NCBI RefSeq assembly: GCF_002939705.1
Contig: NZ_MDCB01000001.1
Location: 248,001-312,000, forward strand
Origin: Xanthomonas albilineans
Lineage (GTDB): Bacteria; Pseudomonadota; Gammaproteobacteria; Xanthomonadales; Xanthomonadaceae
Direction of reading: 5' to 3'
DNA length: 64,000 nt
Shown one piece after another: positions 4,447-64,000 of the stretch. How positions within the stretch are numbered: the first letter of the stretch is position 1; each line of letters begins with the position of its first letter. Below the pieces are notes generated by a model. That model did not search any database. It saw only the letters and a program-made list of their open reading frames with translations, and had not been told where the DNA came from. A program made the translations under genes and the position numbers.

Positions 4447-5841
4447 TTATCCAAATTGTTGGGCAAGGCTGCTTTGAATGGATTGCATTTGTGCGACGAG
4501 TGTATTCATTGCGCTGAATCTGGCAGTGTACTGGTCGCTCAGCGTCGACATGCGTTTGTCCAGGTCGCTGAGTTGATCGGTCAGGTCGCTGATGTGCTTG
4601 TTGAGCGCGTTGGTGCGTTGTGTCAGTGTCCCGTTGGTCCCGTCCAGATTGCCGTTGAGCAGGGTGTTCATCCCTGAGGTGAAGCTGCCATTGGCGCCGA
4701 ACATGCTCTTGGCCGAAGCAGAGTTGCTGGCCATCGCGCTGTCGAACTTGCCGCTGTCGAAGCTCATCACGCCGTCCTTGTCGATGGTGACCCCTAGCGC
4801 GCCGAGGGCGGTGATGTTGTCGCTGACCTGCTTGCGTAATGATTGCTGCAGCCCACGCACCATCGCATCGCCGGTCAACGGGGAGGATGTCTTGGTGGTT
4901 GCATTGTAGTCGCTGGAGGAGTTCAGCACGGTATTGGTTGCGTTGTAAGCACTGACGAGGGCAGTCAAATTTCCCTTCAACGCGCTGTTGTCGTTGGCGA
5001 TGTTGAGTTTGAACGTGCTGCCCGGAATGGCCTTGGTCAGGTTCAGGACGACGCCAGGGGCTAGATCGGCGATGGAGTTGCTGCTGGAGGTGCGTGTAAA
5101 ACCGTCGACGCGCACGACCGCGTTGGTGGCGGCGGTATTCTGGGTCATGCCACTGGCGCTACTACTACTACTACTACTACTACTACTGCTACTACTGCTA
5201 CTACTGCTACTACTGCTACTGCTTGGATAGGTTAATGCGGCCAGACCGCCGTCGCCACCAGAAGCGGTGACGGTCAATGCGCCTGCCGTTCCGGTACTTA
5301 CCGCATTGAGGACCAGGTGGTTGCCATCGTCGGCGTTGACCACGCTGGCGCTCACACCTTTGCCCCCGGCGGCCTTGTTGATCGCCGCGGCGATATCGTT
5401 GAGTGTGCTGCCTGGGACGATGGTGACATTGAGCGAGTTAGTGCCATAGGCGATCGTCAATGTGCCGTTACCGACCGTCGCGGTGCTGGCATAAGCCGCC
5501 GAGGTTAGCTTTTGCGCTTGCGCCAAACTGACCACTTCAACGTTGTAATTGCCCGCAGTGGCGTTCGAGGTGACGCTGGCGGTATACCCGGCGCCATCGG
5601 CGACAGTGGCATTGAACGCGCCGGTATCGGCGCTGGTGGAGAGGGATTTGATCGCGGTCTGCAGATTGGACATCGCGCCCTTGATCGTCCCTAGTGCCGA
5701 GAGTTGTGCAGTCGATGCGGTGCCGTCTTTGTTGATCCGGTCTTGCTGGGGCGCGCGCTCTTGGGCGACCAGATTGGCGACGAAGGTGGGAATGTCCAGG
5801 CCAGAGCCGATGGACGACATGATTGAAGAAGTAGCAGCCAT
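4447..5841 (-). CDS. fliD: Flagellar filament cap protein FliD (HAP2)
   Basis: 464 residues. MSSIGSGLDIPTFVANLVAQ near the N-terminus and the coiled-coil C-terminus (ISDLTDQLSDLDKRMSTLSD) are the FliD ends that form the cap at the filament tip; the central D2/D3 region is variable. The ATG (MAATSS) has AAGGAAGG upstream. Unusual: residues around 206-228 contain 22 consecutive serines encoded by a nearly pure AGT/AGC repeat, in the exposed variable domain. It is preceded by a sigma-28 site, and the fliC terminator isolates it from fliC. Export is by the flagellar type III system with the FliT-like chaperone. Confidence 0.95.
   Translation of the reverse strand: MAATSSIMSSIGSGLDIPTFVANLVAQERAPQQDRINKDGTASTAQLSALGTIKGAMSNLQTAIKSLSTSADTGAFNATVADGAGYTASVTSNATAGNYNVEVVSLAQAQKLTSAAYASTATVGNGTLTIAYGTNSLNVTIVPGSTLNDIAAAINKAAGGKGVSASVVNADDGNHLVLNAVSTGTAGALTVTASGGDGGLAALTYPSSSSSSSSSSSSSSSSSSSSSSASGMTQNTAATNAVVRVDGFTRTSSSNSIADLAPGVVLNLTKAIPGSTFKLNIANDNSALKGNLTALVSAYNATNTVLNSSSDYNATTKTSSPLTGDAMVRGLQQSLRKQVSDNITALGALGVTIDKDGVMSFDSGKFDSAMASNSASAKSMFGANGSFTSGMNTLLNGNLDGTNGTLTQRTNALNKHISDLTDQLSDLDKRMSTLSDQYTARFSAMNTLVAQMQSIQSSLAQQFG
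5158..5223 (-). repeat. Trinucleotide (AGT/AGC) microsatellite inside fliD
   Basis: 22 serine codons in a row. On the plus strand this reads as nine consecutive ACT units flanked by ACT/GCT mixtures. Unit changes would lengthen or shorten the serine run without a frameshift. Confidence 0.95.
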
Positions 5842-5892
5842 GGTGGCCTTCCTTACGGTGACTGGCACAGGAATGGCCAGCGCTTGGGAGAA

Positions 5893-5919
5893 CTATCGGC
5901 AGGCGACGTCGATGCTTGA
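5893..5919 (-). promoter_or_regulatory. Sigma-28 (FliA) promoter for fliD
   Basis: Minus strand: TCAA, 15 bp, GCCGATAG. The -10 box matches the GCCGATAA consensus at seven of eight positions and the spacing equals that of fliC and flgM. The predicted start is about 45 bases before the fliD ATG. Confidence 0.75.
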
Positions 5920-5985
5920 GTGTCTTGTCTACAATTTGTGATTGTCGGGATGTGGAAGCAATTTTTGTGCCATCAATCCGCAGGT

Positions 5986-6013
5986 AAAAAAAAGCCCACC
6001 CTTGCGGGTGGGC
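5986..6013 (-). terminator. Rho-independent terminator of fliC
   Basis: GCCCACCC, loop, GGGTGGGC: a perfect 8-bp stem followed on the minus strand by eight Ts. It lies 26 bp past the fliC stop codon and should uncouple fliC from fliD. Confidence 0.95.
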
Positions 6014-6039
6014 CTGATGTGACTTGTATATCGCTTTGC

Positions 6040-7224
6040 TTAGCCTTGCAGCAAGCTCAGCACGCTCTGCGGAGCAGACTTGGCCTGTGCCAGCATCGCG
6101 GTACCGGCCTGCTGCAGAATCTGCTCGCGGGTCAGATCGGCGGTTGTCTTGGCGTAGTCGGTATCGATGATGCGGCTGCGCGATGCCGACAGGTTCTCCG
6201 AGGCCGAGCTCAGGTTGGCGATGGCGGAGGTAAAGCGGTTCTGGACCGCACCCATGTCGGCACGCGAGGAGTTCACCGCTTTCAACGCGTTGTCGACGAT
6301 GCTCAGCGCCTTCTGCGCACCGTCAAAGGTGCTGATGTCCAGATCCTTCACGTAGTTCGTACTGCCTGCCGCGGCGGTGGCAGCGGTAATGCCTGCATTG
6401 CTGAAGGTGATGCCGGTGGCGCCAGTGGCGGAGCCCGCGGTGAACGAGAAGTCCTGGCCACCCTTGATCGATTCCAGCTTCAGCGCGCCGGAGGTGCTGT
6501 CGACCGAGGCGTAGACGCCGGTCTGGTCCATCTTGTTGTTGATCGCGGCGGCGATCTTGGTGGACACATCGGAACCGACGTCGCCAGTGGCCACGCTGAC
6601 GCTATCGATGTTGATGCCGTTGACAACCATACCGGAGAAGCTGCCGCTGGCTGTCGCGGTGCCGGAGGCCAACGCGGCCGAACCGGTCTGGGTGGCGGCG
6701 AAGCCGGTCTTGCCCAGCACATTGATGTTGGCATCGACGATCGTGTTGATGCCGATGGTCTGGCCGGCGTTGGCGCCGACCTGGAACAGTGCGCCGGTGA
6801 ATGACCCGTTCAGCAACTTGGTGCCGTTGAAGTCGGTCTGGTTGGCGACGCGGTCGATTTCCGAGGTCAGCTGAGTGACTTCCGCGTTGAGCGCCTGACG
6901 GTCGTTGGTGGAGTTGGTGGCGTTGGCTGATTGCACCGCCAGCTCGCGGATGCGTTGCAAGTTGTTGCCGATTTCGACCATCGCGCCTTCGGCGGTCTGC
7001 GCCAGCGAGATGCCATCGTTGGCGTTGCGCCCAGCGACGTTCAGGCCGTTGATCTGGGTAGTGAAATTCTCGCCGATATTAATGGCGGCAGCGTCGTCCT
7101 TGGCGCTGTTCACTCTCTTACCTGTCGACAACTGTTGAATCGTCGTCGCCAGGTTGGCGCTGTTCAGATTGAGGTTGCGCTGAGCATTCAGCGACATAAT
7201 ATTGGTGTTAATTACTTGTGCCAT
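6040..7224 (-). CDS. fliC: Flagellin
   Basis: 394 residues. The conserved N-terminal D0/D1 ([19 protein letters not shown]) and C-terminal D1/D0 (ending [14 protein letters not shown]-like) flank a short variable centre. ATG is chosen because MAQVINTN is the universal flagellin start; the open frame upstream is not coding. A sigma-28 promoter and a strong terminator make it a single-gene unit. The flg22-equivalent stretch, residues 30-51, reads [12 protein letters not shown] then [10 protein letters not shown]; the glycine normally at flg22 position 18 is alanine (A47), and the following residues also differ. No cysteine is seen, as is usual for flagellins. Confidence 0.97.
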
Positions 7225-51631: not shown

Positions 51632-52285
51632 TCACTGATTGAGCGTGCGGGGCGGGAGTGCTGTCGTGCTGGCCCGCGCCTCGGCGATGGTGATCTTCTG
51701 CGCCACTGCCGCACGCAATGGCGTAGCGTCCGGCAGCAGACGTTGTAGTTGGCGCCAGTAAGCTGCGGCTTGCGCGTAGTGTTGTTGCTGAAATTCGGCG
51801 ATGCCCAGCATCCATAGTGCGCGCTGGTTGTCCGGTTGCAGTGCCAGGACCCGTTCGAGCCTGTCGCGTGCCGCCGTGACGATAGCGAAATCAGGGCGTT
51901 GTGCCATGTCCGCTTCGACCCAGCCGAGCAAGGCCTCGATGTTGTCCGGGGCGAGCTGCAAGGCCTGCGCATAGGCCTGTTCTGCGTCGGCGTGGCGTTG
52001 CGCCTGTTGTGCGTCCCAACCTTGTTGCAGCAGGATTGGCAGCGCCTTCCCAATAGGCTCGGTCAGGGCGGGCGCTGCAGGTTGCAGCGGTATGCCAGCC
52101 AGTGCGGCGGGATCGCCGACATGCCAGTACACAATGGTGCCAAGCATGGGCAAGGCGATGACCAGCAAGGCGGCGATCGCATAGTGCGGACGCATGCCCT
52201 CGCGACGGGCCAGCAACGGACGCAATACGGCGAGCATGGCAATCCCGAGCATTGCGGCCACCGTCAGCACGAAACTCGCGATCAC
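51632..52285 (-). CDS. ccmI: Cytochrome c biogenesis protein CcmI (TPR type)
   Basis: 217 residues. Two membrane helices (about 3-22 and 36-56) are followed by periplasmic TPR repeats (QRHADAEQAYAQALQLAPDN then IEALLGW). CcmI binds apocytochrome c for heme ligation by CcmF/CcmH. It overlaps ccmH by four bases and is the last gene of the ccm run; downstream is the convergent CLC-F gene. Confidence 0.92.
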   Translation of the reverse strand: MIASFVLTVAAMLGIAMLAVLRPLLARREGMRPHYAIAALLVIALPMLGTIVYWHVGDPAALAGIPLQPAAPALTEPIGKALPILLQQGWDAQQAQRHADAEQAYAQALQLAPDNIEALLGWVEADMAQRPDFAIVTAARDRLERVLALQPDNQRALWMLGIAEFQQQHYAQAAAYWRQLQRLLPDATPLRAAVAQKITIAEARASTTALPPRTLNQ

Positions 52286-52752
52286 CAGCCATCCTCCGCT
52301 TCCGGCTCCGCCGCCATGGCATCAGGGCCACGGCCACGCTGTCGCAGTGTCGCCACGACCAGGCCGCCGCCTCCAATCAACAAAAGTGCCGGCCCGAACC
52401 ACAGCAGCCAAGTCGTTGGTGCCAGCGGCGGGTCGTACAACACGAAGGCGGAATAACGCGCCACCATGTACTGTTTGATCTGCGCATCGCTACGCCCCGC
52501 TTGCAATTGTGCGAACACTTGATGGCGCAGGTCGCGTGCCAGGGGCGCGTCGGAGTCGGCCAGGTTTTCGTTCTGGCAGACCAGACAGCGCAGTTGCGTG
52601 GTCAGCCGCTGAAAGCGTTGTTCCTGCGCGTGATTCTTGAATGGCAACGGATCCACCGCCTGAGCGATGGCCGGCAGACTGCAGACGAGCCACAGCAGCA
52701 GCATCAGGTGCCAGCGGATGCGATGAAGCTTGCGGATAGGAAAGATGCTCAT
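52282..52752 (-). CDS. ccmH: Cytochrome c biogenesis protein CcmH
   Basis: 156 residues with a signal peptide (about 15-32), the redox motif LRCLVCQN, conserved LADSDAPLARDLRHQVFAQL, and a C-terminal helix (WLLWFGPALLLIGGGGLVVA). It reduces apocytochrome thiols for heme attachment. It overlaps ccmG and ccmI by four bases each. Confidence 0.96.
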   Translation of the reverse strand: MSIFPIRKLHRIRWHLMLLLWLVCSLPAIAQAVDPLPFKNHAQEQRFQRLTTQLRCLVCQNENLADSDAPLARDLRHQVFAQLQAGRSDAQIKQYMVARYSAFVLYDPPLAPTTWLLWFGPALLLIGGGGLVVATLRQRGRGPDAMAAEPEAEDGW

Positions 52753-53291
52753 CGCCGCCCGTTGGTCAGCGCCGCGATCGCCGGGCGCAGTTCTTCGGCG
52801 AGCACCGTCTGCGTCAGGATGCCGACATGCTTGTAGCGGACCACGCCATGGGCGTCGATCAGGAAGGTCTCTGGTGCGCCGTAGACGCCGAGGTCGATCG
52901 CGCGCTGACCATCCTCGTCCACCAGCACCAGCGCATACGGGTTACCGCGTTGCGCAAGCCAGGCCGCTGTGTCGCGTGGATCGTCCTTGTAGGCGTATCC
53001 GATCAGGGGCACGCCCAGGGTGGGTGCCTGCGCCATCAGCAGCGGATGCTCTTCGCTGCAGGCTATGCACCAACTGCCGAAGACGTTGAGCAGATATGGA
53101 CGGCCGCGTAACGCAGCGCTGCCGCTTTTTTCAGTTGGATGGTCCAGGCGCGGCAGCGAAAACGTCGGCACTGGCTTGCCGAGCAATGGCGATGGTAGTT
53201 CGCGTGGATCGTGGGTGCGGCTCCACCACAACCCGACCCCGAACAGCACCGCCAACAGTAGGAAGCCGAGCAACGGCAACACACGGCTCAT
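52749..53291 (-). CDS. ccmG: Thiol:disulfide interchange protein CcmG/DsbE
   Basis: 180 residues: one N-terminal membrane anchor (LLGFLLLAVLFGVGLWW) then a thioredoxin-like domain with NVFGSWCIACSEEHP (CxxC) and YGAPETFLIDAHGVV with the cis-proline region. It keeps the heme-ligating cysteines of apocytochromes reduced. Overlaps ccmF and ccmH by four bases each. Confidence 0.96.
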   Translation of the reverse strand: MSRVLPLLGFLLLAVLFGVGLWWSRTHDPRELPSPLLGKPVPTFSLPRLDHPTEKSGSAALRGRPYLLNVFGSWCIACSEEHPLLMAQAPTLGVPLIGYAYKDDPRDTAAWLAQRGNPYALVLVDEDGQRAIDLGVYGAPETFLIDAHGVVRYKHVGILTQTVLAEELRPAIAALTNGRR

Positions 53292-55270
53292 GGTGTCGCT
53301 CCCATCGCATGTGCTGTGTCGGTCGCGCTGGGTGGCGCGGCGGCTTCATCAGGCCGTGCACGCAGCCGGCGCGCGCTGGCGCTGACGAAGCCACCGAGCA
53401 TCATCAGCAAGCCGCCGGCCCAGATCCAGCGGATGCAGGGCTTGTCGTACAGACGCACGGTCCAGCCGTATTCGATGTGTTGGTCGTCCAGCGGTTCGCC
53501 CAGGGCGACATAGAGATCGCGCAGGATGCCGGCGTCGATGGCCGCCTCGGTCTGGATCCGTTCGCTGCTGTACAAGCGCTTTTGCGGATGCAGCACCGCC
53601 ACCGTGGCGCCATCGTGCAGCACGGTCAGCGTGCCTTGTTCGGCTTTCCAGTTGGGGCCGTCGAGCAGATGCACGCCATCGAAGCGGAAATCGTAGGCGC
53701 CGATGCGGGTGCTTTGTCCTGGATCCAGGCGCACGTCGCGCTCTACCGATAGACTTTCCGACAGCAACACGCCAGCGACGAATACCGCCACACCGACATG
53801 GGCCAGCAGCATGCCGGCCATCTCTGCCGGAAAGCGGCGGCCGCGCGGTGCATCGCGCCAGCGGGTGTAGGCATACAGTGCGGTCCCCACGCCGACCCAT
53901 GCCGCCGCTGCGACGCCTGCGACCGCACGCAAGGTGCCGGCCGTCAGCAGCCAGGCCAGCAGTGCGCAGCCCAGGGCAGCCAGGCCGGCGCGTGCGGCGA
54001 CCGCGCGCAGCGCGCCGGGTTCGGTGCGGCCCCAGCGCAGATAAGGACCGAATGGCAGTAGCAGGATCACTGGTAGCATCAGCAGCGGGAACAGCAGGCC
54101 GAAGTAGGGCGGACCCACCGAGATCTTGCCCAGCCGCAGCACCTCGCCGAGCAGCGGAAACAAGGTGCCGAGCAAGACCATCGCCGCGGCCACGCTCAAC
54201 ATCAGATTGCCGACCAGAATCGCGGTTTCCCGCGATAGCGCGGTAAACGGTTTGCCTGCCGCCAGTCGCGGCGCGCGCAGGGCGTACAGCAGCAGCGATC
54301 CGCCGACCGCCAACACCAGGAAACCGAGAATGTACAGGCCGCGACGTGGATCTGCGGCGAAGGCGTGGACCGAGGTCAGCACGCCGGAGCGGACCAGAAA
54401 GGTGCCCAGCAGCGACAACGAGAATGCCAGGATCGACAGCAGCAAGGTCCAGGCACCGAGCGCACCGCGCTTTTCGGTCACCGCCTGGGTATGGATCAGC
54501 GCCGCGCCGACCAGCCATGGCATGAAACTGGCGTTTTCCACCGGGTCCCAGAACCACCAGCCGCCCCAGCCGAGTTCGGCATAGGCCCACCAACTGCCGG
54601 CGACGATGCCGGCGGTGAGGAAGCCCCAGGCGACGTTGGTCCAAGGACGCGCCCAGCGCACCCATGCTTGCTGCTGTTCGCCGCCCAGTAGCGCGGCGAT
54701 GGCGAAGGCAAAGGCGACCGAGAAACCGACGTAGCCGGTGTAGAGCACTGGTGGGTGAAACACCATGCCGGGGTCTTGCAGCACCGGATTGAGCTCGCTG
54801 CCATCGCGTGGCATCGGCGAGAGTCGCGCGAAGGGGTTGGAGGTGAACAGGACGAAGGCCAGGAAGCCGCTGGAGACCAGCCCCAACACGCCGAGCACGC
54901 GCGCGGCGAAGGCTTCCGGCAGGTGTCGCCCGCTCCATGCCAGCGCCACCGTCCACAGGTTGAGGATGGCGATCCACAGCAACAGCGAACCCTCGTGCGC
55001 ACCCCACACCGCCGCTAGGCGGTAGTACCAGGGCTGCGCCAGATTGGCGTTGGCGGCGACGTAGCGCACCGAGAAATCGAGGCTTAGCAGCGCATACGCG
55101 AGCAGCGCGAAGGCCAGCCAAGCGAACCCGGCCTGGGCATAGGCCGCTGGCCGCGCCACTGCCATCCAGGCGCGCTCGCCGCGCCAGGCGCCGAGCAGTG
55201 GCAGCACGCTTTGCGCAAGCGCCAACAGCAATGCCAGGATCAACGCGCACTGGCCCAGTTCGGCACTCAT
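53288..55270 (-). CDS. ccmF: Cytochrome c heme lyase subunit CcmF
   Basis: 660 residues, about 15 membrane helices. The tryptophan-rich WWD heme-handling loop reads LGWGGWWFWDPVENASFMPW. Conserved histidines are seen in the flanking VFHPPVLYTGY and the RSGVLTSVHAFAADP segments. It takes heme from CcmE and attaches it to apocytochrome c. Start is the ATG of MSAELGQCALIL, 49 bp after ccmE ends. It overlaps ccmG by four bases. Confidence 0.97.
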   Translation of the reverse strand: MSAELGQCALILALLLALAQSVLPLLGAWRGERAWMAVARPAAYAQAGFAWLAFALLAYALLSLDFSVRYVAANANLAQPWYYRLAAVWGAHEGSLLLWIAILNLWTVALAWSGRHLPEAFAARVLGVLGLVSSGFLAFVLFTSNPFARLSPMPRDGSELNPVLQDPGMVFHPPVLYTGYVGFSVAFAFAIAALLGGEQQQAWVRWARPWTNVAWGFLTAGIVAGSWWAYAELGWGGWWFWDPVENASFMPWLVGAALIHTQAVTEKRGALGAWTLLLSILAFSLSLLGTFLVRSGVLTSVHAFAADPRRGLYILGFLVLAVGGSLLLYALRAPRLAAGKPFTALSRETAILVGNLMLSVAAAMVLLGTLFPLLGEVLRLGKISVGPPYFGLLFPLLMLPVILLLPFGPYLRWGRTEPGALRAVAARAGLAALGCALLAWLLTAGTLRAVAGVAAAAWVGVGTALYAYTRWRDAPRGRRFPAEMAGMLLAHVGVAVFVAGVLLSESLSVERDVRLDPGQSTRIGAYDFRFDGVHLLDGPNWKAEQGTLTVLHDGATVAVLHPQKRLYSSERIQTEAAIDAGILRDLYVALGEPLDDQHIEYGWTVRLYDKPCIRWIWAGGLLMMLGGFVSASARRLRARPDEAAAPPSATDTAHAMGATP

Positions 55271-55319
55271 CGCGGCACCGTTGTCTTGCTGTAGACGCTG
55301 TGCACGGCCATGTTCAGGC

Positions 55320-55787
55320 TCATGGGTGCGTGGGCGCCACGCTGGCGCCCATGTGCGAGCGGGTGGCGTGTGCCTGGGCCATGGCGTCTTTCAGTTCTTG
55401 AGGCATGTAGGTCTCGTCGTGCTTGGCCAGCACTTCGGTCGCAACGAAACGCGCGCCTTGCATCGAACCGGTGGCGATCACGGCTTGGTTATCGCGGAAC
55501 AGGTCTGGCAGGATGCCGGTATAGGCAACGGCGGTGGCGCCGGCTTTGTCGATGACAGTGAAGTCCACGCGCAGGGAATCGGCGCTGCGTCGGATCGAGC
55601 CGGCCTTGACCATGCCGCCGAGACGGAACACACGATAGCCCTTCGCTGCACCGTTCTGTACCTGGCTGGGGGTGAACAGGTAGCTGATATTGTGCTGAAG
55701 GGCCAGCACGAACAGTCCGGTTGCCAGGGTCGTCGCACCGAGCAATAACAGGACCAGCAGCAAGCGGCGTTTACGGGTTGGATTCAT
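55320..55787 (-). CDS. ccmE: Heme chaperone CcmE
   Basis: 155 residues. One membrane anchor ([20 protein letters not shown]), then the OB-fold domain. The heme-binding histidine H123 is in [10 protein letters not shown] with the conserved Y127. It carries heme to CcmF. Its ATG lies inside ccmD (17 bases of out-of-frame overlap). Confidence 0.97.
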
Positions 55788-55986
55788 CGTGTTGCCAGGT
55801 GCCGGTGGAGACGCCACGTGCGCGGCGTGCGTGTTCGCGTATGACGTGCGTGCGGGCGGCGGCGAGCAAGCGCCGTTGCCGCCAGCGCGGCAGCACATAG
55901 TCCACCAGTAGCACTAGCAGTGCCAGTGCGTAGGCGGTCCACACATAAACGGCGTAGCCGCCCATGGCCCAAAAGCCGCTGTTCAT
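55771..55986 (-). CDS. ccmD: Small membrane protein CcmD
   Basis: 71 residues: [20 protein letters not shown] then [18 protein letters not shown] is the CcmD pattern of one helix followed by a basic tail. It connects CcmC with CcmE in heme release. The start overlaps ccmC by four bases and the end overlaps ccmE by 17 bases. Confidence 0.93.
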
Positions 55987-56798
55987 CGCGCATGCTCCAC
56001 CGGCATCGAAATGGACCCCTGCGCATTGGCCGGGAGCCGTGACGACGGTTGTGCGGCCATGGCGATCGTGCGGACCCAGGCTTTCCCGCACTCCAGCGCC
56101 AATAGATCGGTACGCATGCGTTCGAGCAGGCTCGCCAGGTAGTAGCACTTGCTGGCCAGTACTGCGGTCAACAGTGGCCAGAGCATGGACAAGGGCATCG
56201 TTGAGGGACCGAGGACGCGCACCGTGGAGCCTTGGTGCAACGTGTTCCACCACACCACGGAGAAATGCACGATCGGCAGATTGAGTAGCCCGACCAGCGC
56301 CAGCAGCGCCGCAGCGCGCGCGCCTTGACGCGGGTCGTCGATGGCGCGGTGCAGGCCGATCACGCCGAGATACAAGAACAGCAGCACCAGTTCAGAGGTC
56401 AGCCGCGCATCCCAGGTCCACCATGTGCCCCACATGGGTTTGCCCCACAGCGAGCCGGTGCACAGGGTGACGAGGGTGAATGCTGCGCCAATCGGGGCCG
56501 AGGCCATACACGCCACTTCCGCCAACTTGATCCGCCACACCAGCGCGATGAATCCGCTCACGCCCATCGCGGCGTAGATGAACAGGCTCATCCAGGCGCA
56601 AGGCACATGTACGAAAATGATGCGATAGGCGTCGTGCTGTTGATAATCCGGCGGGGCAAGCACCAGGCCGCCGTAGAACGCAACCGCGCCAAGCACGACG
56701 GCCGTGCCGAGGCTCCAAGGTCGCAAGCGACCGGCCACGCGGAAGAAGGTAGGAGGCGAAGCCAACCGGTGCAACCATATTGGAATCCACGAGGTCAT
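55983..56798 (-). CDS. ccmC: Heme exporter/handling protein CcmC
   Basis: 271 residues with six membrane helices and the WWD signature GTWWTWDARLTSELVLLFLY. RIIFVHVPCAWMSLFIYAAM has the conserved histidine. It loads heme on CcmE. In most gammaproteobacteria ccmA and ccmB precede this gene; here a protease gene lies 10 bp upstream instead. Confidence 0.96.
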   Translation of the reverse strand: MTSWIPIWLHRLASPPTFFRVAGRLRPWSLGTAVVLGAVAFYGGLVLAPPDYQQHDAYRIIFVHVPCAWMSLFIYAAMGVSGFIALVWRIKLAEVACMASAPIGAAFTLVTLCTGSLWGKPMWGTWWTWDARLTSELVLLFLYLGVIGLHRAIDDPRQGARAAALLALVGLLNLPIVHFSVVWWNTLHQGSTVRVLGPSTMPLSMLWPLLTAVLASKCYYLASLLERMRTDLLALECGKAWVRTIAMAAQPSSRLPANAQGSISMPVEHAR

Positions 56799-56808
56799 GG
56801 CGCAGCAC

Positions 56809-58176
56809 TCACTGAGTGGTGTGACGGATGCCGGGCAGGGCCTGCACCGCCGCCGCCGCGTTTATTTGCAGCATGCCATCGCGTTGCTGGCTGGTACGCA
56901 GTAGTAAGTCATGCACGTTGTATGCGTTCAGATGCGGCGATAGCGCCAGCAGCAACGCGACCACGCCACTGACGTGCGCGGTGGCCATCGACGATCCGGA
57001 GGTGAAGTCGTAGCCGCCGTCGGGTTGGGTGGTGAGGATGTCCTGCCCGGGTGCGCTCAGCACCCCAGCTGGTGCAGGCGTTGCCGTACTGCTGCGGACC
57101 ACGATGACTCCCGGCGTGTTGTCGGGAAAGCCGTTCATGCGTCCGTCCGGCGGCATCGCCGCGACCACGATGCGGCCCTGTCGGAGCAGTTGTTCCAGCA
57201 GTTTGCGCAGCAGTGGGTCGGCGGGTCCGCCGAGGCTCAGGTTGACGATGCGTGCGGGGGTGTCGCCGATTGCCACCAGCGCTTTGGCCAGAGTGAAGGA
57301 GTTGCAGCCAGCACCGGCGCCGGGGTGTTGCGGATACCAGCAGGCCTTGTACACGTCCAGCATTGCTTTGGGCGCGATGCCGACGATGCCCAGATGGTTG
57401 TTGCTTCCGGCACCGATGATGCCGGCCACCTCGGTGCCATGGGGGTCGCGGTCGAACGCAGTGGGGTCGGCGGCCACCAGGTCGCGCACGATGCGCAAGC
57501 GTCCACGCAGGTCTGGATGGGCGGTGTCCGCGCCAGTGTCGACGATCGCCACCTCCACGTCCTGGCCCTGACTCCATACCTGCGCGGCGGCGGCGTTGGT
57601 GGCGACGAAGCCGCGTTGCATGTCCACGTAGGGATCGTTGTAGTGCAGCGCCTGCACCGAGGAGGCGGGCCTTGGTGCAGGCGTCGACGTAGTCGCAGGT
57701 GCCTCTGCGCTGGGATCTGCATAGGTACCGAATTCCTGCAGTGGCTGCGACAGCGCGACGCGCTCGTCCTTGGCCAGTTGTGCGAGCAGTGACGCACGGT
57801 CGCTGCCGGGTGCAGGCTCCAGCACCACGCAGTAAAGCCCCAGCGTCTTGATCGGCCAGCCGGCGACCTGACGCAGGCCGTAACGGCGATTCAACGCCTC
57901 CAACGTGGCGACCGCCTGGGTGCCGGCGCCGTAGTAGCGCGCGGAAGCGTAGCCGAGCAGATCCGAGCCAGCATGGCGGCTCGGCGCGGCCATCGGGTTG
58001 GCCACGGCAAGGACGATCTGGCGCTGGCTGTCCAATGTCGGTGACGGGTCCTGATACGGCAGTCTGGCACTGCTGGCGTCGCCCGTGGTGGCGAGCGCGT
58101 CGGGTGATCTGTGGGCGCAAGCGCCGAGAATCAGGCAGGCGGTAAGCAGGCTGACGAGACGTATGCCGATGATCAT
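56809..58176 (-). CDS. Subtilisin-like (S8) serine protease, lipoprotein
   Basis: 455 residues. The lipobox LILGACAH gives a lipidated C20. A pro-region-like segment (about 50-150) precedes the catalytic domain. The triad is present in order: AIVDTGAD (Asp), DPHGTEVAGI (His) and SGSSMATAHVSG (Ser), with the SLGG substrate strand. Its start overlaps the anti-sigma gene by four bases, and ccmC follows after 10 bp. It may act in the periplasm, perhaps on the membrane-bound anti-sigma factor or on cytochrome-linked proteins; that role is inferred only from gene order. Confidence 0.92.
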   Translation of the reverse strand: MIIGIRLVSLLTACLILGACAHRSPDALATTGDASSARLPYQDPSPTLDSQRQIVLAVANPMAAPSRHAGSDLLGYASARYYGAGTQAVATLEALNRRYGLRQVAGWPIKTLGLYCVVLEPAPGSDRASLLAQLAKDERVALSQPLQEFGTYADPSAEAPATTSTPAPRPASSVQALHYNDPYVDMQRGFVATNAAAAQVWSQGQDVEVAIVDTGADTAHPDLRGRLRIVRDLVAADPTAFDRDPHGTEVAGIIGAGSNNHLGIVGIAPKAMLDVYKACWYPQHPGAGAGCNSFTLAKALVAIGDTPARIVNLSLGGPADPLLRKLLEQLLRQGRIVVAAMPPDGRMNGFPDNTPGVIVVRSSTATPAPAGVLSAPGQDILTTQPDGGYDFTSGSSMATAHVSGVVALLLALSPHLNAYNVHDLLLRTSQQRDGMLQINAAAAVQALPGIRHTTQ

Positions 58177-58814
58177 GGCGTGGAAATCGGCTCCGCTAAA
58201 CGGATGCGGTTGCTGGCCCGCAATTGCTGCACATTACGCTGCGTCTGTGCCGCAGGGCCTGCCTGCACGGGTACCACCGTGTAGCCACCGGCGCCATTGG
58301 GGCCGGCGACCACATGCAACTGTAGCTTGTGCAGCAGGGCGTCCCAGTCGGCCATGGTCATGCGTGCGTCCGGCACCACCCGGATCGCACCCGTGGCCGG
58401 TGGCGGCGCGGTATCGCTGAGGGTACGGTAGACGGTGCCGCGGTCGTGATCGGCCGACAATCTGAAGCCAAGCACACCCAGACCGACAGCCTGCAGTAGC
58501 GCCGCCGCGACCAGTGCCCGTGTGGTCCAGCTGGAGCGCGGGCGCAGTGGACCCTGTTGGGGGAAGGGTGCATCCAACTGTTGGAGCAGTCGCTGCAGTC
58601 CGGCTTCGGCATCCACTGGTACATTGCTGGGCAGCGACATCGCCATGCGCAAGCGGCTCTGCTGCGCGAACTCGGTGCTGCAAAAACGGCACTTCGCCAA
58701 GTGTGCCACCAACCATTCGTTCTGTTCTTCCGTGGCACTGCCCTGCAGCACCCACGGCATGAGATCCCAGGCATGTGCGCATTCGTTACCTGGCTCGTTG
58801 AAGCCTGTTTTCAT
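58173..58814 (-). CDS. Membrane-anchored zinc-type anti-sigma factor
   Basis: 213 residues. Cytoplasmic ZAS motif HLAKCRFC (H38, C42, C45), with an upstream conserved block ECAHAWDLMPWVLQGSATEE. One membrane helix (about 99-117, TRALVAAALLQAVGLGVLGF) leads to a periplasmic C-terminal domain of about 95 residues. It overlaps the sigma factor gene by four bases and the protease by four, so the trio is one coupled unit. ATG has GGGGAG upstream. Expected to sequester the adjacent ECF sigma. Confidence 0.9.
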   Translation of the reverse strand: MKTGFNEPGNECAHAWDLMPWVLQGSATEEQNEWLVAHLAKCRFCSTEFAQQSRLRMAMSLPSNVPVDAEAGLQRLLQQLDAPFPQQGPLRPRSSWTTRALVAAALLQAVGLGVLGFRLSADHDRGTVYRTLSDTAPPPATGAIRVVPDARMTMADWDALLHKLQLHVVAGPNGAGGYTVVPVQAGPAAQTQRNVQQLRASNRIRLAEPISTP

Positions 58815-59395
58815 GATGCGCTCCCCGTTAGCGCTGACGTGTCGCCGGCCAATCCTGGCAACACATTGCGAAGCTTGACCCGGGCATGGAAGAGCCGGGC
58901 CTTGATGGTGCCCACCGGGCACTGCATGATCGTCGCGACTTCTTCCAGCTTGTGGCCCAGGCCGTACACCAGTTCCACCACCAGGCGCTGATCGGTCGAT
59001 AGACGTTCCAGCCCTTTGCCTAGCCAGTCGCGTAGTTCGCGGTCTTCGTCCGGATCCGCCGCGGTGACGTGGTCCTCGGCGTTGGCGTCGTCGTCAATGG
59101 CGTCATCACTGTGGTGGCGGATCGCCTTGAGTCCGCAGCGGTAGGCGATGCCCATGATCCAGGTCGAGACCTGCGAGTCGCCGCGAAAATCGCGGGCTTT
59201 TTGCCACACGATCCAGAAGCAATCGTTGATGGCTTCTTCGATGATGTCCGGGCGCCGGGTCAACCGCGATAGGAACCGACACAGGCGCCCATGGTAGGCG
59301 CGATATAGACGAGCCAGCGCATCGCGGTCGCTGGCCACCATGCGCTGGAGCAGCATACGGTCAGTGACATCGCCGAGTAGATCGTTGTCGTTCAT
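58811..59395 (-). CDS. ECF-family RNA polymerase sigma factor
   Basis: 194 residues. Region 2 is LYRAYHGRLCRFLSRLTRRP then DIIEEAINDCFWIVWQKARD, region 4 is LSTDQRLVVELVYGLGHKLE then EVATIMQCPVGTIKARLFHA. Between them lies a short acidic linker. The start is uncertain: the ATG used has no good ribosome site and a GTG eight codons earlier is possible. Directly coupled to its anti-sigma factor. Candidate targets are its own operon and the cytochrome genes around it, but the promoter motif could not be defined by eye. Confidence 0.92.
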   Translation of the reverse strand: MNDNDLLGDVTDRMLLQRMVASDRDALARLYRAYHGRLCRFLSRLTRRPDIIEEAINDCFWIVWQKARDFRGDSQVSTWIMGIAYRCGLKAIRHHSDDAIDDDANAEDHVTAADPDEDRELRDWLGKGLERLSTDQRLVVELVYGLGHKLEEVATIMQCPVGTIKARLFHARVKLRNVLPGLAGDTSALTGSAS

Positions 59396-59458
59396 GGGGG
59401 AGGACTTGGCAACGGGCACGCGTATGTGCCGGAGTGGGAGGGAAAGGTTGCACCGGAA

Positions 59459-60220
59459 TCAGAAACTGCGGGACACGCTGGCCACCCAGGGCCATATGCC
59501 CCGGCCAGGGTAGCCGGTACGGGAGTTGCTGAACACGCGCTCCAGTTCCACGTTCCAGTGGCCGGTGGTGTAGATCAGCCCGGCGTGTCCGTAGTGGTAG
59601 TGTGACGCGTATTCCAGTCCATACATGGCCGGTGGAGCCTGGCTGATGCCGATCCCTGCCGACAACGATAGCGCCCCGATCAATGGCTGATGTGCGGTGA
59701 GGTCGGTTGCGCCGTACCAGCGCGGGCGCAGGCCACTGTCGGGCATCTGGAATGCGGCCAGGGAAATACTGAGGCGGTCGCGGTAGTTCCAGCCGAGGCT
59801 GGCCTCGTTGCGGTTGAACAGCCGGTTGATGAGATCGGTGGGATAGCTGTAGCGCAGAACCTCCGCCTGCATCTGCCAATTATCGGACAGGGTCCAGCTG
59901 CGTGACAGGCTAGCGGCGACCATCAAGACCTTGCCTGGTGCGTTCAACGCGGAACTGGCCGAGACGTTTACCGACCAGCCTGGAGAGGGCAGCCAGAACA
60001 GCGTGCCTTGGAGCACCGGGGTGTCGCGGGTCAGCGCAATGCCGCGATCGACCAGTTGCGAACTGAGCCCAGCGGCACCGCCGAAATCGCTTGCAGTGGC
60101 CACGTCCGATATCGATGTGGCCGCGACGCTCAGCGCCAGTAGAGGTCCAGCGGTCCTAAGGGGCCTTGCCGGCCAGCGTCCCACGAGCGGGGTGACCACC
60201 CGCAAGAGCCTGTTCAGCAT
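59459..60220 (-). CDS. Predicted outer-membrane beta-barrel protein
   Basis: 253 residues with a signal-peptide-like N-terminus (LRTAGPLLALSVAATSISDV) and alternating hydrophobic beta strands that end in a C-terminal phenylalanine (WVASVSRSF), the outer-membrane insertion signal. DFGGAAGLSSQLVDRGIALT recalls the TIGR02001/Gcw_chp-type barrel proteins of unknown function. It lies between a cytochrome c gene and the sigma-factor gene on the same strand. No catalytic motif is seen. Confidence 0.7.
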   Translation of the reverse strand: MLNRLLRVVTPLVGRWPARPLRTAGPLLALSVAATSISDVATASDFGGAAGLSSQLVDRGIALTRDTPVLQGTLFWLPSPGWSVNVSASSALNAPGKVLMVAASLSRSWTLSDNWQMQAEVLRYSYPTDLINRLFNRNEASLGWNYRDRLSISLAAFQMPDSGLRPRWYGATDLTAHQPLIGALSLSAGIGISQAPPAMYGLEYASHYHYGHAGLIYTTGHWNVELERVFSNSRTGYPGRGIWPWVASVSRSF

Positions 60221-60400: not shown

Positions 60401-60799
60401 TCAATGCAGGCTGTGGAGATAGGTGATCAACTCTTGCAATTGTTTGTCGTCGTCGAGTCCGTCGTACTTCATCTTGGTCCCGGGCATTGCCTTGGACGCC
60501 GGCTGTGACAAGTAGCTGTGCAGCTTCTCGTCGCTCCAGGTCCACTGGCTCTGCTTCATGGCGTCTGAGTAGTTGAAGTCCGGCACGCTGCCGGCACGGC
60601 GTCCGGCGACTCCGAACAGGCTGGGGCCTTTCTTGTTCTTGCCTGCCGTGGCGCTGTGGCATTCGGCGCACTCGCTGGCGAACACGCCTTTACCGGGCAG
60701 GTCGCCGGCGGCATGTGCGGCGGGTACAAGGGCAAGGCTCAGCGGCAACAGACCGACGATCAGGGTGCGCCACAGCGAGAAGGTGTTGACGGGTTTCAT
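60401..60799 (-). CDS. Periplasmic monoheme cytochrome c (class I)
   Basis: 132 residues. Signal peptide MKPVNTFSLWRTLIVGLLPL then SLALVPAAHA. The heme-binding motif is CAECH and the distal methionine is in PASKAMPGTKM. It would be soluble in the periplasm and could pass electrons between the inner membrane and an outer-membrane partner. An ATG seven codons upstream is an alternative start; neither has a clear ribosome site. It follows the Cyc2-like gene after 9-30 bp. Confidence 0.9.
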   Translation of the reverse strand: MKPVNTFSLWRTLIVGLLPLSLALVPAAHAAGDLPGKGVFASECAECHSATAGKNKKGPSLFGVAGRRAGSVPDFNYSDAMKQSQWTWSDEKLHSYLSQPASKAMPGTKMKYDGLDDDKQLQELITYLHSLH

Positions 60800-60828
60800 G
60801 ATGGATGAGGTTCTGGGCATGGGGGAAA

Positions 60829-62190
60829 TCAGAAGGCAAGGCTCAGCGACACGGAGAACTGGTTGAGGTCACCCGGGCGGGTGGGTGGCAGCGCCCCGAA
60901 AATATTACCGGTGGTGCCGTTGAACTTGCTGAAACGGAACCAGCTTGCCGACAGGCGCAGGTTGGAGATCGAAGAGAACGAATCGTCCTTACCGAACGGC
61001 GCCCAATACGCAACGATCAGGTTGCTGGTGGTGTCCGGCGCACCATACGGGCGATAGCGGAACGGATCGTTCGAGCCGGTGTTGATGAAGTGCGCCAGCA
61101 GCACGCCGTAGGTTTGCCGGTAGGCGTAACTGAGGCTGATCGATTGGTCATGGATGCTGGCGCGGCGCGCGCTGGTCAGGCCGGGTGTGGTCGGGTCGAT
61201 CAGCGTACTGCCGTAGCGGCGGCGCTCGTAGATGTCGAGATAGCCGAGTTTGAGGACGTGTTCGCGGGTACCCAGGAACTGGTAGTTCAGGTCGTAGCCC
61301 AGGTCGGTGAAGTCGTCGCGTGGGCCGGTGCTGCGCGGCAATTGGCGCTGAGTGGTGAGGGCGACGACGCCAGCGGAGAAAAACTGTTTCTTCAAATCCT
61401 TCATGTAGCTCAGACGCAGGTAGCCGGTATCGCTGAGCTTGCCTGGATCCCCTCCGATGCCGTAGCCCAGGTCGTCCTGGGTAGACACGGGCAGGGCGGT
61501 GTAGGTGCCGACCTCGCCGTACCAATTGTTATCGTAGAGGCCGTAGACACTGGTGCCGATCACGCGGTGCGACAAGGAAGACTGGTTGAGCAGGCTAGTC
61601 GAACTGGCGTATGTGGATGCCGGGCCGAGACCGGAGGCATTGGGAAGCATGCCGATCGGATCCTGGGCGCCGGGATTGTTGTTGACGGTCACGCCCAGCA
61701 CCGCGTCCTTGCCGCCGACCTGGAAGCGCTTGGCGATGGCGCGCAAATCCAGGTTGTCCAGCCTGGTGGTGTACTTGTTATTGCCGTTGTTGGTGGTGGT
61801 GACCTTGGCGTAGCCGCCGATGTTGTCGGTGATGCGGCCGGCCAGATACAGGTTGGCTGTGCTGAAGCGCGCAGGGCTTGGGCCGTGCTTGGGCACGCTT
61901 TGGGTGGCGGTGAGTTCCGCCGAGACCGGGATCTTGGTGCCGTTGCCGTCGGTGTCGGTGTAGCCGCTCATCTTGAAGCGAATGCCGTATGGCGTCAGTG
62001 CCGGACCATAGGAGCCGATGTGGCAGTCCGCGCACGACGAGCCTGTCTGCCGCGCGAAGGCGGGGACCGCTGCCGCACGCGGGCTGAGCATCAGTAACAG
62101 CGAGCCGAGCGCCGACCACAGCAATATCTGCTCGGCGCCGCGTGTCCTGTCGTGACGGGAGAAGGAAAAGACGGACGGGACGTAAGGCAT
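60829..62190 (-). CDS. Cyc2-like outer-membrane monoheme cytochrome-porin fusion
   Basis: 453 residues. A signal peptide (about 21-41) is followed by VPAFARQTGSSCADCH, a single heme motif CADCH at residues 53-57, then YGPALTPYGIRFKMSGYT. The remaining 370 residues are repeated amphipathic strands ending in a C-terminal phenylalanine (SVSLSLAF), a transmembrane barrel. This N-terminal cytochrome plus barrel layout and the xPAFARQTG...CxxCH...PALTPxGxxFKxxGY pattern are those I know from Cyc2, the iron-oxidising outer-membrane cytochrome. The ATG has AAGGA eight bases upstream. Electron flow across the outer membrane is an inference, and the substrate is unknown. Confidence 0.85.
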   Translation of the reverse strand: MPYVPSVFSFSRHDRTRGAEQILLWSALGSLLLMLSPRAAAVPAFARQTGSSCADCHIGSYGPALTPYGIRFKMSGYTDTDGNGTKIPVSAELTATQSVPKHGPSPARFSTANLYLAGRITDNIGGYAKVTTTNNGNNKYTTRLDNLDLRAIAKRFQVGGKDAVLGVTVNNNPGAQDPIGMLPNASGLGPASTYASSTSLLNQSSLSHRVIGTSVYGLYDNNWYGEVGTYTALPVSTQDDLGYGIGGDPGKLSDTGYLRLSYMKDLKKQFFSAGVVALTTQRQLPRSTGPRDDFTDLGYDLNYQFLGTREHVLKLGYLDIYERRRYGSTLIDPTTPGLTSARRASIHDQSISLSYAYRQTYGVLLAHFINTGSNDPFRYRPYGAPDTTSNLIVAYWAPFGKDDSFSSISNLRLSASWFRFSKFNGTTGNIFGALPPTRPGDLNQFSVSLSLAF

Positions 62191-62255
62191 GCGATAGGTC
62201 CTTGGGCTGGTCGGTTCGGTGACGGGCTAGGGAAGAGAGCAGGAAAATACGGAAT

Positions 62256-62852
62256 TCAATGTCGGCGCAGGAACGGCAACATGCGTCTTAGTACCTCGTC
62301 GCGGCGGACGAAGTGGTGCCACAGCGCCGCGCCGATATGCAGCACGATCAGCCCCAGCAACCCCCAGGCAGCATATAAGTGCCATGCGCCCAAGGTATCG
62401 GCCAAATCAGGATCCGCTGCGACAAATGTGGGCAGCGTCGCACCGAATATGTGTACCGGCTTGTCCAGCGCTTGGCTCAGACCAATACCCAGCACCGGCA
62501 GAGCCATCAACAGCGCGTACAGGGCGATATGCGTCAGTGTCGCCAAGGCGCGTATCAGCGCCGAGCCGACCGCGAAATCGTGCCTGCGGCCGAGCCGCAG
62601 GCGCACTGCCACGCGCAGGCAGAACAGTCCGAGGACGAACAGGCCGAAGTGGCGGTGACCTTCCAATAGCCATTGGCGCAGTGTTCGCCCATCGACCTCT
62701 TCGCGCAGCAGGATCAGGCCAGCCGCCAACACCAGGCACAGCACGGTGAGCCAGTGCAGCCATACCATCGGGCGCGGCAAGGCGGCGGAGGGCGCAAGCG
62801 CTGGGCGAGCGTGGGAAGCCGTTTCGGCATCGGCCTGCGTGGGGGAGGTCAT
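62256..62852 (-). CDS. Cytochrome b561-type inner-membrane protein
   Basis: 198 residues, four membrane helices. Histidines sit at the expected places: WLHWLTVLC in helix 1, EGHRHFGLF before helix 2, LTHIALYALL in helix 3 and VLHIGAALWHHF in helix 4. Such proteins hold two b hemes and move electrons between quinol and periplasmic carriers. It is the first gene of the redox block; the Cyc2-like gene follows after 65 bp. Confidence 0.93.
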   Translation of the reverse strand: MTSPTQADAETASHARPALAPSAALPRPMVWLHWLTVLCLVLAAGLILLREEVDGRTLRQWLLEGHRHFGLFVLGLFCLRVAVRLRLGRRHDFAVGSALIRALATLTHIALYALLMALPVLGIGLSQALDKPVHIFGATLPTFVAADPDLADTLGAWHLYAAWGLLGLIVLHIGAALWHHFVRRDEVLRRMLPFLRRH

Positions 62853-63026
62853 GGCCTTTCGCTTTGGTCCTAGTGAGGCGATGCGTGGGGCAGTGGCATG
62901 AAGCGGGGCGCCGCTGCAGCGGTTGTCCTGTATGAGTGTCGGGGGGGCGGCAAAAGGTTGTCTGGTCGCGATGAGATTTCCGCAATTGTCTTGTCGGCAA
63001 CCTTTCCGTAGGCCTGTGGCACTTAA

Positions 63027-63180
63027 GGAAGGTCTGAACAAGTCTGCTCAAATGTAGGACACTGTCGATCCGCCACCAAGCAGTCCCCGCGATGACGCAG
63101 CTGACCTTCTCTGATGTCGAGTATGCGGGCGGGCAAGCGCAAGCAGACGCGGCGCGAGGTGTTTCTGGCACAAATGGAAC
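63027..63180 (+). mobile_element. Truncated IS5-family element (left end and broken transposase start)
   Basis: GGAAGGTCTGAACAAG at the left is the familiar Xanthomonas IS5-group terminus. The transposase start at 63092 reads MTQLTFSDVEYAG, and the rest of the N-terminus (KRKQTRREVFLAQMER) continues in another frame because of a GGGC tandem duplication at 63127-63134. The coding sequence then stops abruptly at an IS3-family element near 63181. Confidence 0.75.
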
Positions 63181-63260
63181 GTGCCCCCCCCGGAAAACCG
63201 GGCCAACGTAAAGTAGAGACTTCGCCGGCATGGGCCCCCGTCATCACGAGGAGTCAAGCG

Positions 63261-63527
63261 ATGAAGAAGTCACGGTTTACCGAGGAGCAAATTGCCTATG
63301 TGCTCAAGCAGGCCGAGTTGGGGATGGCGGTCGGTGAGATCTGTCGGAAGATGGGAATTGCCGAGGCCACGTTTTACGTATGGCGGAAGAAGTACGGTGG
63401 TCTGGGGCCGTCTGAGCTCAAGCGCTTGCGACTGCTGGAGGAGGAACACCGCAAGCTTAAACAGCTGGTGGCCGACCTGAGCCTAGATAAGGCGATGCTG
63501 CAGGAGGTCGTCACAAAAAAGCTCTAA
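63261..63527 (+). CDS. IS3-family transposase OrfA
   Basis: 88 residues from ATG: MKKSRFTEEQIAYVLKQAEL, then GEICRKMGIAEATFYVWRKK, the helix-turn-helix that binds the IS ends, then a leucine-zipper-like region (LKRLRLLEEEHRKLKQLVAD). It ends just after the slippery heptamer. Intact on its own, but a functional OrfAB fusion would need the broken orfB. Confidence 0.93.
   Translation: MKKSRFTEEQIAYVLKQAELGMAVGEICRKMGIAEATFYVWRKKYGGLGPSELKRLRLLEEEHRKLKQLVADLSLDKAMLQEVVTKKL
63515..63521 (+). other. -1 programmed ribosomal frameshift site (AAAAAAG)
   Basis: A six-adenine run followed by G, near the end of orfA. A -1 slip enters the orfB frame (ALRPAQRRTW...), as in IS3-family elements. Confidence 0.85.
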
Positions 63528-64000
63528 GGCCTGCCCAACGACGCACCTGGGTAGGCCAGCTACGTGAGCACTTCGGGGTAAGCGAGCGGCATGCGCTGCG
63601 GATCATGGCGATGTCGCGCTCGGCGTTTTCCTACAAGGCTAAAGCACGCGATTGCAGCGCCATCCGTCTGAGGATGCGCGAGATCACCCAGACGCGTGTG
63701 CACTAAGGGTGTGAGCGCGTGTTCGTTGTGCTGCGTCGTGAAGGATAGCGGGACAATCACAAGCGCGTACACCGCATTTACAAGGAGGAAGGCCTATCAT
63801 TGAGGCATTGCAGGCCCCGACGCAGTCGCAGCGCACGGCGACGTCAACCGAGACGGGTCGCCACCGCACCGAATGCACGATGGGGCATGGACTTCGTCAG
63901 TGATGCACTGTTCGATGGTCGCCGTTTCCGGTCGCTGACGGTGGTGGATCACTTCACTCATGAGTGCCTGGATATCGTTGTTGACCAGTCGTTGAAAGGC
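63521..64000 (+). pseudogene. IS3-family transposase OrfB, broken by two stop codons
   Basis: In the -1 frame the product begins ALRPAQRRTWVGQLREHFGV. It is interrupted by TAA at 63704 (after TQTRVH, where Tyr is usual) and TAG at 63746 (after LRREG, where Trp is usual). The remaining frame stays open to the edge with RWGMDFVSDALFDG, containing the first catalytic Asp of the DDE domain. Both codons are one base change from the expected residue. Confidence 0.88.

Follow-up and report, generated by a model that had tools for sequence, protein, structure and literature searches.

We analysed a 64,000-nucleotide stretch of DNA from Xanthomonas albilineans (the window; contig NZ_MDCB01000001.1 of assembly GCF_002939705.1, positions 248,001 to 312,000), in which the minus-strand gene at 60829-62190 encodes what is, judged by sequence and predicted fold, a Cyc2-family cytochrome-porin. 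Family membership, a fold prediction, a conserved gene order, a shared promoter motif, a second set of cytochrome c maturation (ccm) genes and the joint decay of the cytochrome genes were computed here. With a confidence somewhat above even, we read the locus as a self-contained, inducible electron-transfer module that would join the quinone pool to the cell surface, with electrons flowing outward; such a compact gene set, found in plant-associated Xanthomonas and soil relatives, would resemble an electrical lead that runs from the inner membrane to the surface and can be switched.

A Cyc2-family cytochrome-porin

The initial annotation of this DNA had noted a Cyc2 pattern, one CADCH heme motif, a large beta barrel and a terminal Phe, of which the pattern, the heme motif and the Phe are read directly from the 453-residue protein; the heme region runs AVPAFARQT-GSS-CADCH-IGSYG-PAL-TPYG, CADCH is the lone CxxCH, and the C-terminal residue is Phe. 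Cyc2 has been defined by the motif AXPXFAR[Q/K][T/Y], one CXXCH, a PXL four residues on, at least 365 residues, a 16-strand porin and a signal peptide (Keffer et al. 2021, PMC8406198; this and the other papers are cited from available extracts of their text). Here AVPAFARQT occupies residues 41-49, followed by GSS and by CADCH at residues 53-57, and the length exceeds the minimum. The sequence P63-x-L65 is invariant in an 81-row alignment; five residues lie between it and His57, at a place where some relatives have a two-residue gap, which puts it two residues beyond the distance given in that definition. The N-terminus carries a hydrophobic helix (residues 19-34) and then AAA-VP.

Structure prediction had been set beforehand as a test of the assignment, and the result was a helical N-terminal heme domain followed by 16 strands. 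The AlphaFold2 model, built from an alignment (A2) of 81 sequences comprising the window protein and its 80 best loci, has a mean predicted local distance difference test (pLDDT) score of 83.5 and a predicted template modelling (TM) score of 0.81; three short helices near the heme site (43-49, 53-56 and 67-74) precede a 16-strand barrel within residues 89-452, and confidence is low at residues 3-39 and 182-198. Foldseek returned 216 matches in the PDB at E ≤ 0.001, and the best 50 of these 216 are outer-membrane barrels (OmpT, OmpF, AlgE, Omp38) with modest query-normalised TM scores of 0.36-0.48. By sequence, the sole match among solved structures was a weak one to chain 6qvm (E 0.0069 across 35 positions), and a profile search of the Pfam and NCBIfam libraries gave zero matches. 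Residues invariant in the 81 rows concentrate in the heme domain (A41, P43, Q48, T49, C53, C56, H57, G62, P63, L65, T66, G69, F72, K73).

The relatives recovered by profile search are Cyc2-type cytochrome-porins, as had been anticipated, and one of them (locus L162) lies in an operon with a rusticyanin-like gene, which scores 137 bits, under its cut-off of 146.7; the remaining genes of the L162 operon were named by eye.

Organization of the locus

The Cyc2-like gene was described initially as flanked on the same strand by cytochrome b561 upstream and a cytochrome c downstream, and all three genes are indeed present on the minus strand. The interval first drawn around them, 60401..62852, captured these core genes but not the full extent, since the co-directional block runs from 62852 down to 51632. 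Missed with it were the extracytoplasmic function (ECF) sigma factor, anti-sigma factor, subtilase, second ccm set and shared promoter, and these are a more unusual part of the locus than the cytochrome trio. The features, in window coordinates, are as follows.

62256..62852, minus: cytochrome b561-type inner-membrane protein, 198 aa, the presumed quinone-linked end (PF01292, 79.2 bits, gathering cut-off 30.1)
60829..62190, minus: Cyc2-family cytochrome-porin by sequence and model, 453 aa; helical heme domain about 41-76, 16-strand barrel 89-452
60401..60820, minus: class I cytochrome c, 139 aa, with signal-like N-terminus, CxxCH and Met ligand (PF00034, 39.9 bits, cut-off 21.3)
59459..60220, minus: small outer-membrane barrel-like protein, TorF-family-like, 253 aa (TIGR02001, 39.9 bits, under the cut-off of 47.15)
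58811..59419, minus: ECF sigma factor (PF08281, PF04542 and TIGR02937 above cut-off)
58173..58814, minus: anti-sigma factor with one membrane helix (zf-HC2 and NF052375 both below cut-off; AlphaFold2 model and Foldseek)
56809..58176, minus: subtilase (S8 peptidase) with lipoprotein-like N-terminus (PF00082, 107.7 bits)
55983..56798, minus: ccmC, second copy in the genome (TIGR01191, 243 bits, above cut-off)
55771..55986, minus: ccmD, second set (TIGR03141 above cut-off)
55320..55787, minus: ccmE, second set (NF009637 above cut-off)
53288..55270, minus: ccmF, second set (TIGR00353 above cut-off)
52749..53291, minus: ccmG/dsbE, second set (TIGR00385 above cut-off)
52282..52752, minus: ccmH-like open reading frame with LRCLVCQ motif, named by eye; 49% identity to the same-place gene in the other ccm cluster
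51632..52285, minus: ccmI-like (tetratricopeptide repeat-type) open reading frame, identified by eye and from its position; its match in the other ccm cluster is 37%
62933..62961, minus: P1, promoter motif 5' of b561 (contig 310933-310961)
59423..59451, minus: P2, promoter motif 5' of the ECF gene (contig 307423-307451)
62997..63025, plus: P3, divergent promoter motif, facing an IS3 element here and a polysaccharide cluster in relatives

Spacing is tight throughout: 65 bases separate b561 from the Cyc2-like gene and 8 bases the latter from cytochrome c, the sigma, anti-sigma and subtilase genes are joined by overlaps of a few bases, and a gap of 10 bases leads from the subtilase gene to ccmC. 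The true start of the ECF factor is probably an internal ATG near 59395, just past the promoter. The small barrel protein has no Pfam match; across 19 Xanthomonas loci its identity is 42-81%, except for one at 39%. The ECF sigma factor is the best-conserved protein of the block.

Conserved gene neighbourhood and phylogeny

Among genome contigs, at least 575 of at least 595 stretches matching the pattern encode a Cyc2-like relative (tblastn, E ≤ 1e-3), from which the best 80 loci were kept; in viral contigs there were 7 pattern matches, none confirmed as such a relative. The proposed partnership of b561 and cytochrome c with the Cyc2-like protein is borne out by their association in these loci: both genes lie beside cyc2 in 41 of the 80, cytochrome c alone in 8 and neither in 31. 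Furthermore, the order b561-cyc2-cytc-torF-ecf-antisigma-subtilase (torF being the small barrel gene) is unchanged in 31 of 31 loci within the reach of each contig; these loci represent 30 genomes (L032 and L043 share one), drawn from two metagenome bins and the genera Xanthomonas, Rhodanobacter, Dyella and Luteibacter. A chance neighbourhood of the three cytochrome genes was rejected on the basis of this co-occurrence and order. Next in line is ccmC in all 19 Xanthomonas loci and in none of the other 12, and the b561-cyc2-cytc core extends to Burkholderiales.

In a sample of 20 same-genus genomes, the Cyc2-like gene is free of internal stops in 17, and of 35 genomes of the sister genus, 32 have a long match, 1 has only a C-terminal piece and 2 have none. 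Recent acquisition by the window strain was rejected, both because of this spread and because the gene is sister to those of other Xanthomonas in the tree. Compared with four relatives, its ratio of non-synonymous to synonymous substitution rates is 0.20-0.36. More broadly, profile searches gave some match in 70 of 369 genomes sampled from the class and in 89 of 398 sampled from the phylum, many of these matches being restricted to the heme region.

Two side observations concern relatives elsewhere. A plasmid of Acidithiobacillus ferrooxidans (L026) and pACRY03 of Acidiphilium cryptum (L028) carry the same Cyc2-like/cytochrome c pair at identical locus coordinates, which suggests exchange between acidophiles. 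In Uliginosibacterium gangwonense (L090), about 2 kb separates two Cyc2-like genes, the first of which is accompanied by b561 and cytochrome c.

The trees place the window protein in a separate, b561-linked clade of the Cyc2 family. In a tree of 141 rows, pruned beforehand of fifteen Xanthomonas rows that were near-duplicates and of several loci that were short or duplicated, every row with an adjoining b561 falls inside one 62-row clade (Shimodaira-Hasegawa-like approximate likelihood ratio support 98), and the Cyc2 of L162 sits in a different clade. The strict distance rule behind the row labels overlooked b561 at several loci (e.g. L044, L046, L060, L063), and the count of 41 in 80 is preferred. 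A tree of 55 rows gave the b561-linked clade support of 99/98, a value which is not an independent test, the rows having been selected after the 141-row tree was viewed.

Both partners retain their ligands: in b561, His33, 66, 158, 172, 179 and 180 are present in 43 of 43 aligned rows and His108 in 41, and in cytochrome c, C51, C54, H55 and M117 are present in 49 of 49. Because of this conservation, both can, as far as sequence goes, be working cytochromes. The cytochrome c scores 86.9 bits with the cytochrome c-550 CycA model (NF043008), under the cut-off of 240. In two clade members that lack b561, a NapC/NirT gene follows cytochrome c: in L064 at 5830-6159 (PF03264, 108 bits, truncated where the contig ends; 4.0 kb upstream covered) and in L169 at 539-1174 (PF03264, 188 bits, four CxxCH; 1.4 kb upstream covered). 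NapC/NirT proteins are quinol dehydrogenases, and their occurrence in these two loci supports a quinone-linked role for whatever occupies the b561 position; b561 itself is thus presumably the quinone link.

A promoter motif shared with the sigma factor gene

Of 20 named loci that carry the ECF gene, 17 have the motif RCAACCTT-N15-CACNYA 5' of cyc2; of 60 loci that lack the gene, 21 of them with b561, none does. The half-motif [AG]CAACCT is present 5' of b561 at 29 of 31 ECF-bearing loci and at 1 of 19 that lack the ECF gene. The window genome (G000) has four copies of the full motif: one precedes b561, one precedes the ECF gene, one is divergent to the b561 site, and the last is on a different contig. 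Each of the 17 gene-bearing genomes of the genus has 4 sites, each of the 3 genomes without the gene has 0, and a reversed-pattern control gave 9 sites across all 20. A motif shared between a sigma factor's own gene and its targets is the arrangement of an ECF factor with its own regulon, and three of the four genome sites fall in this locus; by this sequence pattern, we infer that the motif belongs to the ECF sigma factor encoded here.

In 15 of the 17 genomes (G000 and G016 differ) the fourth site is found 16-19 kb away from the one at b561, where the divergent cluster ends. In relatives the divergent cluster holds FdtA, NeuD-type, DegT/DnrJ and Wzx-like genes, and the gene following the fourth site is HprK-like, with a score below cut-off. 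The window genome is without that polysaccharide cluster; it has an IS3 element and then a region with type III secretion apparatus genes. The IS3-type element (63104-64000) lies just upstream of b561, facing P3, and the region beyond it has a low G+C content at third codon positions and IagB-, OrgA- and OrgB-like genes scoring under curated cut-offs.

A putative sigma, anti-sigma and protease switch

The AlphaFold2 model of the anti-sigma factor has a helical N-terminal domain (cytoplasmic), a membrane helix at 96-121 and a beta-alpha-beta-beta-alpha-beta domain at 144-209 (periplasmic). The latter is encoded by about 58173/58176..58394, and the subtilase gene (56809-58176) follows directly. 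The topology of residues 144-209 is that of subtilase prodomains, a common fold. A Foldseek search with this C-terminal domain gave no match at E ≤ 0.001, and among the 50 matches listed, subtilase/furin prodomains had the highest target-normalised TM scores (0.66-0.71; the next was 0.60). Comparison with the subtilase N-terminus by hhalign was weak (E 0.0011; probability 20% for the cut region and 3.9% for the full proteins), and Pfam found nothing in either the C-terminal domain of the anti-sigma factor or the N-terminal segment of the subtilase. On these models, the subtilase may recognise the prodomain-like domain of its neighbour, and the three proteins could form a sigma/anti-sigma/protease switch of a possibly new type.

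A second cytochrome maturation set decays with the cytochromes

The module's maturation genes (51632-56798) comprise ccmCDEFGHI without ccmAB, and the other set lies near ccmB, about 200 kb off on the same contig. Each of six genomes tested has one ccmB above cut-off; ccmC is present twice in G000, G012 and G035 and once in G001 and G008, both of which are without the module. That the module's ccm genes are simply the ordinary ones was rejected as the sole explanation, since another ccmB-ccmC pair exists elsewhere; ccmC, F, G and H of the module share 49-60% identity with their counterparts in the genome's other cluster.

In two genomes, G819 (L211) and G820 (L212), cyc2, cytc and ccmC, E, F and G are partial or in pieces, ccmH and ccmI remain, and no close b561 was found; torF and the genes for the ECF sigma factor, anti-sigma factor and subtilase have kept almost their whole length. 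That the cytochrome genes and most ccm genes degenerated jointly suggests that the module cytochromes and the second ccm set serve each other. In a tssM mutant of Xanthomonas perforans, cytochrome c maturation and two rpoE-type genes were up, according to an extract of that paper (PMC10782981); these may be genes of the module.

Direction of electron flow

In the proposed mechanism, b561 would take electrons from quinol at the inner membrane, the small class I cytochrome c would ferry them across the periplasm, and the single heme of the Cyc2-type protein, at the mouth of the 16-strand barrel, would hand them to an outside acceptor; the private ccmCDEFGHI set would load the hemes. The membrane anti-sigma factor would hold the ECF sigma factor, whose release would activate the operon that encodes it, the conduit genes and, in most relatives, the divergent surface-polysaccharide cluster, and the subtilase probably acts on the prodomain-like periplasmic domain of the anti-sigma factor. 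Known relatives of b561-type and NapC/NirT cytochromes oxidise quinol. Because the partner b561 appears quinone-linked and is exchanged with NapC/NirT, we put outward flow a little over one half, ahead of iron oxidation.

Several observations weigh against this reading. All characterised Cyc2 proteins, among them three from the three clusters, oxidise Fe(II), that is, take electrons in (extracts of PMC8406198). Six clade members with at least 3 kb upstream of cyc2 covered (L082, L085, L087, L088, L089, L095) have no b561 there, so b561 is not obligatory; L085 and L095 are also without a matching cytochrome c (downstream cover in L088 is only 236 bases). The strict motif is missing upstream of cyc2 in three of the 20 named loci with the ECF gene (L052, L055, L058), L058 having it with one additional spacer base. 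The polysaccharide cluster sharing the motif is not obviously redox-related, and the survival of the sigma, anti-sigma and subtilase genes in G819 and G820 after loss of the conduit argues that they have another use too.

The strongest alternative, a real but clearly less probable one, is inward flow: the system would oxidise, facultatively, Fe(II) or a different donor outside the cell, passing electrons from Cyc2 to the c-type cytochrome and a terminal oxidase, with b561 as a minor branch into the quinone pool. Besides the iron oxidation by characterised Cyc2 proteins, it draws on the A2 profile, which matches L162, with its rusticyanin-like operon, at E 1e-90 and the presumed Zetaproteobacterial type at about 1e-21, and on the plasmid loci, where a c-type cytochrome is directly beside the Cyc2-like gene in six of seven and within 2.2 kb in the seventh, one having a nearby gene for a high-potential iron-sulfur protein (HiPIP). 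However, the hallmark of the clade is a quinone-type b cytochrome (NapC/NirT in two loci), the window genome has no rusticyanin-like match, and the rus-operon Cyc2 falls outside the b561 clade in both trees.

It is improbable that the module serves redox-stress protection rather than respiration, with b561 acting like CybB of Escherichia coli, a superoxide oxidase, and the cytochromes clearing the surface of reactive oxygen, copper or oxidised phenolics. Among NCBIfam models, b561 does match CybB (NF008566) best, and ECF control together with a co-regulated surface-polysaccharide cluster would suit an envelope-stress response; yet b561, although it passes PF01292, reaches only 74.6 bits against the CybB cut-off of 170, the presence of two further b561 homologues elsewhere in the genome argues that this one is specialised, and a private ccm set is a heavy cost for a minor scavenger. 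Least probable by far is a transport porin with a structural heme in an operon that mainly remodels the envelope alongside the polysaccharide cluster, for although the best 50 of the 216 Foldseek matches are ordinary porins and torF and the regulatory genes outlive the cytochromes in G819 and G820, the Cyc2-like, cytochrome c and ccm genes are broken together there and the heme-domain residues are the most invariant part of the alignment.

Implications of a possible outward route

The initial annotation held that such a route is not a recognised feature of plant-associated Xanthomonas. For the Cyc2 homologue this did not stand: Keffer et al. state that Xanthomonas sequences were taken out of the Cyc2 set they analysed (extracts of PMC8406198), and the homologue is therefore not new. 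For Xanthomonas, searches of open-licence papers, supplements not included, yielded no description of a b561-Cyc2 module or of the sigma factor, promoter and second ccm set that go with it.

Cyc2 serves as an iron-oxidation marker gene in FeGenie (PMC7005843, extract), despite which almost every genome sampled from a heterotrophic, plant-associated genus (17 of 20) and, by long matches, from its sister genus (32 of 35) has it. If the b561 clade is quinol-linked and works outward, the marker misleads for such organisms. Genetic tests of Cyc2 have been hard in iron oxidisers (extracts of PMC8406198). The b561 clade includes several harmless bacteria that grow in culture, such as Derxia gummosa with the three-gene form and soil Luteibacter, Dyella and Rhodanobacter with the sigma-controlled form; genetic modification is probably easier in these, making the function of the family directly testable, and the promoter and private ccm set offer a handle on when the system is made.

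A fuller proposal, which we hold tentatively and consider rather unlikely as a whole, is that this Cyc2 branch is an inducible single-heme outward route for quinol respiration, with its own sigma factor, ccm set and co-regulated polysaccharide, governed by a prodomain-decoy anti-sigma switch. If true, it would be the first outward-working Cyc2 conduit, and the first in genetically tractable hosts (xanthomonads and soil relatives), and the switch would be of a new type, in which an anti-sigma factor bears a decoy of the prodomain of the protease encoded next to it.

Comparison with known systems

The Cyc2 of acidophilic iron oxidisers (rus operon) shares with the window protein the heme motif, single heme, 16-strand barrel and full-length similarity (L162, E 1e-90), but belongs to another clade, and its partners are cup, cox subunits and rusticyanin, whereas those found here are b561, a class I cytochrome c, an ECF sigma factor and ccm genes. 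Cyc2PV-1 of Mariprofundus (cluster 1) has the same architecture as described in the extracts of PMC8406198, although similarity to Zetaproteobacterial sequences, an identity presumed from family f217, is limited to the first 140-160 or so residues, and the tree branch is long. In Bradyrhizobium, a Cyc2 cluster with HiPIP and periplasmic cytochromes likewise gives Cyc2 its own periplasmic carriers, while b561, a sigma factor and a ccm set go unmentioned in the extract of its description (PMC5566968). E. coli CybB is of the same Pfam family as the module b561, which falls below the cut-off of the CybB model. The MtrCAB and MtoAB systems, with CymA, share the layout of a quinone-linked inner-membrane cytochrome, a periplasmic carrier and an outer-membrane conduit, but they employ decaheme cytochromes and a separate barrel, whereas here a single heme appears to be fused to a 16-strand barrel.

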